Part shown: piece after piece, positions 23,430 to 26,512 of the stretch | Numbering within the stretch: the stretch's first letter is position 1 | Layout: each line of letters begins with the position of its first letter | Origin: Candidatus Promineifilum breve | Lineage (GTDB): Bacteria > Chloroflexota > Anaerolineae > Promineifilales > Promineifilaceae | NCBI RefSeq assembly: GCF_900066015.1 | Contig: NZ_LN890655.1 | Coordinates: 1,280,726-1,344,725 of the forward strand | Reading direction: 5' to 3' | DNA length: 64,000 nucleotides | Program-made: the position numbers and the translations under genes | The notes under the pieces: generated by a model | The model's database searches: none | Told to the model about the DNA's origin: nothing | What the model saw: the letters and a program-made list of their open reading frames with translations, nothing else

Positions 23430-23458
23430 TTGACGCCCACCTCCGTAACTGCTATAGT
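23430..23458 (+). promoter_or_regulatory. Promoter of the alaS attenuator
   Basis: TTGACG (23430-23435), 17 bases, TATAGT (23453-23458). The predicted start point falls at about 23465, exactly the ATG of the leader peptide. Confidence 0.8.
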
Positions 23459-23464
23459 ATCCCC

Positions 23465-23542
23465 ATGTTGAACGTTCCGTTTAAGCACGTGAATTTCGCC
23501 GCCGCCGCCCAGACAGCCAGTCTGGTCGGAATCGTTGCTTGA
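23465..23542 (+). CDS. alaS leader peptide with four consecutive Ala codons
   Basis: A 25-codon ORF beginning MLNVPFKHVNFAAAAQTASL and ending GIVA then TGA. Codons 12-15 are GCC GCC GCC GCC, with two more alanines at 18 and 25. It starts at the predicted transcription start (leaderless) and ends 28 bases before a strong terminator. It precedes alaS, whose product charges tRNA-Ala. Composition, position and pairing options match leader peptides of the trp, his and pheST type. This is a prediction from sequence. Confidence 0.7.
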   Translation: MLNVPFKHVNFAAAAQTASLVGIVA

Positions 23543-23583
23543 CGCGAACTCAACCCTAAGCGAAACGGCAACCGCCAGACTGA
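23509..23583 (+). promoter_or_regulatory. Mutually exclusive attenuator hairpins 1:2 and 2:3
   Basis: Region 1, ccagac (23509-23514), overlaps the end of the Ala run. It can pair with region 2, gtctgg (23520-23525). Region 2 extended (23518-23529, cagtctggtcgg) can instead pair with ccgccagactg (23572-23582), 11 bp with one bulge, which is the left arm of the terminator. Stalling at the Ala codons would mask region 1, free region 2 and prevent termination. Confidence 0.7.
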
Positions 23584-23607
23584 AACCCTCAGTCTGGCGG
23601 TTTTTTT
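23570..23607 (+). terminator. Attenuator terminator before alaS
   Basis: Perfect 14-bp stem aaccgccagactga / tcagtctggcggtt with loop aaccc, followed by seven T. It lies 150 bases before the alaS start codon on the same strand. Confidence 0.9.

Positions 23608-23758: not shown

Positions 23759-26512
<2,754 letters not shown>

Follow-up and report, generated by a model that had tools for sequence, protein, structure and literature searches.

What is the function of the short promoter-to-terminator stretch of DNA that precedes alaS, the alanyl-tRNA synthetase gene, in Candidatus Promineifilum breve? Within the window (the whole 64,000-nucleotide stretch that was analysed), we propose that it controls alaS by ribosome-mediated transcription attenuation, a reading to which comparative sequence analysis leads us to give a probability of roughly 0.86. 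A previous examination of the same DNA, hereafter the sequence-only reading, had already suggested leader-peptide attenuation of alaS, and this suggestion is now supported by conservation in 16 genomes and by codon runs that track the downstream gene in related leaders.

Leader architecture and competing hairpins

The promoter, ORF, four Ala codons, regions 1 to 4 and 14-bp terminator described by the sequence-only reading are all present where it placed them (Table 1). The leader ATG (23465 to 23467) sits six bases past the -10 element of P1, and the short ORF carries consecutive codons for the amino acid handled by the downstream gene product. Region 1 pairs with GTCTGG (23520 to 23525) in the 1:2 hairpin, while an extended region 2 (23518 to 23529) pairs with 23572 to 23582 in the 2:3 antiterminator, which is lengthened by a further stem between 23535 to 23539 and 23567 to 23571. 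The terminator stem (3:4; 14 bp, 23570 to 23602) includes two of the seven T of the run at 23601 to 23607. The pairings 1:2, 2:3 and 3:4 are mutually exclusive, and 3:4 is an intrinsic terminator. Control codons, region 1, region 2 and stop codon succeed one another in such a geometry that a ribosome stalled on the control codons would hide region 1 only, and one at the stop would hide region 2.

Table 1. Features of the predicted attenuator and of alaS (positions in the window)
Feature	Position	Strand	Remarks
Promoter P1, TTGACG-17-TATAGT	23430-23458	+	10 of 12 consensus positions
Leader peptide ORF MLNVPFKHVNFAAAAQTASLVGIVA, 25 codons	23465-23542	+	predicted leaderless; stop TGA 23540-23542; ORF kept in 16 genomes
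Control codons, four GCC (Ala)	23498-23509	+	at least three consecutive Ala in relatives, codons interchangeable
Region 1, CCAGAC	23509-23514	+	partner: region 2
Region 2, CAGTCTGGTCGG plus inner strand 23535-23539	23518-23539	+	partner: region 1, or region 3 (antiterminator)
Region 3, terminator left arm 23570-23583 plus inner antiterminator strand 23567-23571	23567-23583	+	
Region 4, terminator right arm 23589-23602 plus T run 23601-23607	23589-23607	+	intrinsic terminator
Second -10-like element TAAAAT, candidate basal promoter P2	23738-23743	+	15 nt upstream of alaS ATG
alaS, alanyl-tRNA synthetase, proposed regulated gene	23759-26512	+	NCBIfam TIGR00344 equivalog, 850.6 bits

The full leader folds at -59.8 kcal/mol (z -5.5) into a structure that contains hairpin 1:2 and the terminator, and the isolated 2:3 segment folds at -24.9 kcal/mol (z -4.0). 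In a sequence-only alignment of 15 leaders, 92% of the 1:2 and 3:4 pairs and 89% of the 2:3 pairs were kept; covariation of the 2:3 pairs reached 0.204 versus 0.136 in shuffled alignments, with seven cells altered on both sides. When the ribosome-covered part was removed in imitation of a stall, 2:3 was the fold in all 16 leaders. Without a ribosome, several leaders favoured other folds in a transcript ending at the left terminator arm, so kinetics would matter. For the inner antiterminator stem, the advantage over shuffled inner segments was weak (mean z -1.0), and on this margin the stem was rejected as independent proof.

In the proposed mechanism, polymerase would start at P1 and a ribosome would load on the 5' AUG of the leader and trail behind it. 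With ample Ala-tRNA, the ribosome would reach the stop codon and hide region 2, so that terminator 3:4 would form and most transcripts would end near 23607. With scarce Ala-tRNA, the ribosome would halt on the GCC run, hiding region 1 and leaving region 2 free; 2:3 would then form first, block the terminator and let polymerase continue into alaS. If the leader were not translated, 1:2 and 3:4 would form and transcription would stop. In this scheme we infer the transcript start, leaderless translation, the response to tRNA charging and the role of P2.

Conservation in relatives and codon runs in related leaders

We compared the region upstream of alaS in 29 related genomes. The order promoter, ORF, Ala run, 1:2 hairpin, terminator and alaS was found in 16 genomes of the family, including the window's own, which span several genera and of which six belong to the window's genus. 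The conserved unit comprises a TTGAC-like promoter, an ORF of 15 to 32 codons with at least three consecutive Ala, the 1:2 hairpin and a terminator of the form CCGCCAGAC...GTCTGGCGG followed by T. Hence the comparison that the sequence-only reading had proposed gave a positive result: in related Chloroflexota, the short ORF with its Ala run, the stems and the terminator are conserved upstream of alaS. The P1-like promoter of the relatives has a TTGACA-like -35 and a TAnnnT -10, and the distance from -10 to start codon is 6 to 7 nt in most alaS leaders, a spacing that would suit a leaderless transcript; one exception (L011) has its leader start ~30 nt past the -10 with a Shine-Dalgarno-like site. 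The leader peptide varies freely except for the Ala run and a few residues after it. Within the run, codons swap synonymously (GCC 46, GCT 22, GCA 6, GCG 1) and the residue is kept, a pattern to be expected of a device that reads the amino acid.

A covariance model built from the alaS leaders (R1) recovered alaS-linked copies at 70 to 109 bits in additional genomes of this family; in a Chloroflexi MAG (L032) it matched a truncated terminator only. The attenuator is absent from some relatives, including one of the same genus (G004, L005). In two relatives the leader and alaS have become separated, by ~780 nt including a PIN-domain toxin-like gene in G016 (L161, G016:C21) and by ~850 nt in G020 (L134, G020:C97), and the Ala run has decayed in both (QPSAIATSQT and SSRAARQT, respectively).

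With R1, the window's genome and many of its relatives also yielded another strong match, upstream of argC, where the leader ORFs carry Arg runs (e.g., MRNFVNLTPLFIRRRRQTIGLDFEVA) and likewise start just past a -10. Weaker R1 matches in additional families of the class, and a second covariance model (R2) run over 400 genomes of the phylum Chloroflexota, brought out the same four-box skeleton elsewhere. It carries Arg runs upstream of argC, argG or argD, Lys runs (e.g., MRNVHASTKQSKRAKKPDARSG) upstream of lysW/lysX, of homocitrate synthase and of related genes, and Pro runs (MNTIRLPSPPAPDSQT) upstream of a proS-containing cluster. The identity of the downstream gene was checked in representatives for alaS, argC, argG, argD, lysX and homocitrate synthase, and the names proS, lysW and LysE-type gene were assigned by eye. 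Outside the window's own order, the leader start often follows a Shine-Dalgarno-like site and is not leaderless.

For the codon test, the leader ORF was chosen from start signals alone. Cognate residues made up 44% (Ala), 44% (Arg), 38% (Lys) and 48% (Pro) of the control windows in the four classes. Altogether, 334 cognate residues were counted versus 133 expected, and none of 20,000 label shuffles was as high (maximum, 197), in a test that ignores relatedness, which inflates this contrast. Arg control codons include both CGN and AGG, again pointing to the amino acid as the signal. Such a change of codons with the gene in one skeleton is, as judged from these sequences, hard to explain except by a readout of tRNA charging.

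In a specificity control on 23 genomes of other phyla, one genome matched R1 (best, 40 bits) and two matched R2 (best, 34 bits); every match was a gene end plus an ordinary terminator. As covariance matches below ~40 bits include false ones, a match in this range was counted only where the four boxes occurred together with both a short ORF and a cognate gene. Weak R1 matches such as L170, L177, L179, L185 to L187, L190, L191, L193 to L198 and L201 were judged to be due to chance.

In a tree of attenuator cores, alaS copies group with the argC copies of the family, with too few columns for order or monophyly. It is an evenly balanced possibility that one ancestral modular Chloroflexota attenuator (CCAGAC-GTCTGG-CCAGAC-GTCTGG plus terminator) had its sensor codons swapped to Arg, Lys, Pro or Ala, and that the alaS version derived from the argC attenuator of the family, perhaps when a GC-rich run of triplets shifted by one base (CGC CGC for Arg, GCC GCC for Ala).

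Several individual leaders deserve mention. The argC leader of the window's genome (L142; G000:C1:3208789-3208906, minus strand), which lies outside the window, has an in-frame TAG before the Arg run (ATGTTCGTTGACCAAGCCTAG...); this codon is CAG in close relatives and may reflect a nonsense mutation, a sequencing error or a loss of control. In family f11, a proline-rich leader of the same skeleton lies upstream of a cluster of a metallophosphatase gene, an unknown ORF and proS (L180, L182 and L207). At L212 and L229, a leader ORF containing Lys or Gln/Arg codons lies upstream of a LysE/RhtB-type exporter gene.

The second promoter and alternative readings

Between the terminator and alaS, a TAnAAT element occurs at 15 of 16 loci versus 2.0 expected, at a fixed position: among loci of the window's genus it always precedes the ATG by 15 nt, and in the other genera it always follows the T run by 10 nt. 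It has no clear -35, and G004 retains it. On these sequence grounds, the candidate P2 very likely serves as a basal promoter for alaS; the sequence-only reading, upheld as to the attenuation mechanism, had missed this conserved second -10 element past the terminator. As P2 is conserved, also where the attenuator is absent, the attenuated P1 probably adds to basal expression, and alaS need not depend on read-through from P1. Thus, P2 would probably provide the basal expression of alaS, and the attenuator an increment driven by starvation.

The same element lends itself to another reading, namely, that the unit is a stand-alone gene for a small RNA or small protein beside alaS, with alaS transcribed from P2 alone. 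The set of promoter and terminator is complete, a conserved -10 lies past the terminator, and G004 has P2 without the unit. We nevertheless regard this reading as unlikely, given that linkage to alaS is kept in many genera, that the codon run matches the gene in four amino-acid classes and erodes once apart from alaS, that the peptide beyond the run is poorly conserved and that the competing 2:3 pairing is conserved.

A leader may also act on translation or on Rho-dependent termination instead of intrinsic termination, as exemplified by the polycysteine leaderless upstream ORFs (uORFs) of mycobacteria, and a leaderless Ala-rich uORF by itself would fit such control. This is still less probable here: nearly all copies retain the strong terminator and T run, and alaS starts ~30 to 200 nt farther downstream, beyond pairing.

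A T-box or other known riboswitch at alaS is highly improbable. The window's genome (G000) has eight T-box matches elsewhere (e.g., C1:233003-233221), and a T-box controls alaS in Clostridium (PMC4695836), but none lies at the alaS locus, where a search of Rfam families, including T-box (RF00230) and the amino-acid leaders (Leu, Trp, His, Thr, Phe and others), returned no match at gathering or permissive thresholds, and the ORF with its Ala run explains the specificity. Eight other members of the attenuator family likewise matched no Rfam family. Since T-boxes coexist with the attenuators, the genome appears to split amino-acid sensing between two systems.

Finally, a chance assembly of ORF, hairpins and promoter, to which GC-rich triplet repeats could contribute cheap Ala and Arg runs, is ruled out by conservation across genera and classes, and the fold z-scores of the leader and antiterminator together with the recurrence in 16 genomes likewise argue that the observation is not due to chance.

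Relation to known leader systems

Leader-peptide attenuators are known for his, leu, thr and trp, as well as for ilv and phe, mainly in Proteobacteria and Actinobacteria (PMC3766115). The proposed attenuator shares with these classical systems (his, leu, thr, trp, ilv and pheST) coupled translation, control codons, the exclusive pairings 1:2, 2:3 and 3:4 and an intrinsic terminator. The Chloroflexota family differs from them in having no Rfam sequence match, in serving Ala, Arg, Lys and Pro instead, in a start codon predicted to lie at the 5' end or close to it and in using one skeleton common to several operons. A search of the open-access literature turned up neither leader-peptide attenuators for Arg, Lys or Pro nor a description of such attenuators in Chloroflexota for any amino acid.

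The closest precedent, and the one alanine leader before alaS that we found in the open-access literature, is alaL, an Ala-containing leader ORF before alaS of Streptomyces lividans TK24, which the 2021 report presents as not described before (PMC8079986). To the sequence-only reading, which named no alanine leader for alaS in Chloroflexota, this precedent from another phylum has to be added. Like the Chloroflexota leader, alaL is a short Ala-containing ORF upstream of alaS and a proposed attenuator; unlike it, alaL belongs to another phylum, its peptide (MNVIGRNIFATARATSSPVAAA), compared by eye, has no run save for the last three residues, and its account, in the accessible portion, proceeds without comparative structure analysis (PMC8079986). 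The predicted leaderless start, put forward at first as an unusual trait, is not unusual in itself, as leaderless leader peptides are common in S. lividans (PMC8079986).

Streptomyces attenuators of leuS, trpS and thrS also combine a short, mostly leaderless ORF, cognate codons and a synthetase gene, but differ in amino acid and sequence, and several are without a clear U-tract terminator (PMC8079986 and PMC1262725). The alaS T-box of Clostridium acetobutylicum similarly raises alaS when tRNA-Ala is uncharged, but there the RNA reads the tRNA directly and has no ORF (PMC4695836), and no such element is present at the Chloroflexota locus.

The proposed family would thus be a recurring, sequence-related attenuator for alanine, arginine, lysine and proline across Chloroflexota, in genomes that also use T-boxes. 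Its covariance models offer an annotation handle for unannotated leader genes, and the codon swaps that nature has made on a single scaffold could serve to test how attenuators change specificity. Moreover, alaS would represent the case of a synthetase gene with both a candidate basal promoter and a starvation-controlled promoter.

Two observations concern alaS itself. The window's copy carries an insert of ~21 codons (DPLPSPLPGGEGIRGSLQGGE; 25778 to 25840) of CCCTCTCCC/GGGAGAGGG repeat-like DNA immediately before the CGGLH motif, and one single-pattern search of the genome returned no sister copies. A relative (G008) has two alaS-like genes (G008:C15 and G008:C21), each with a strong match to the alanine attenuator model.
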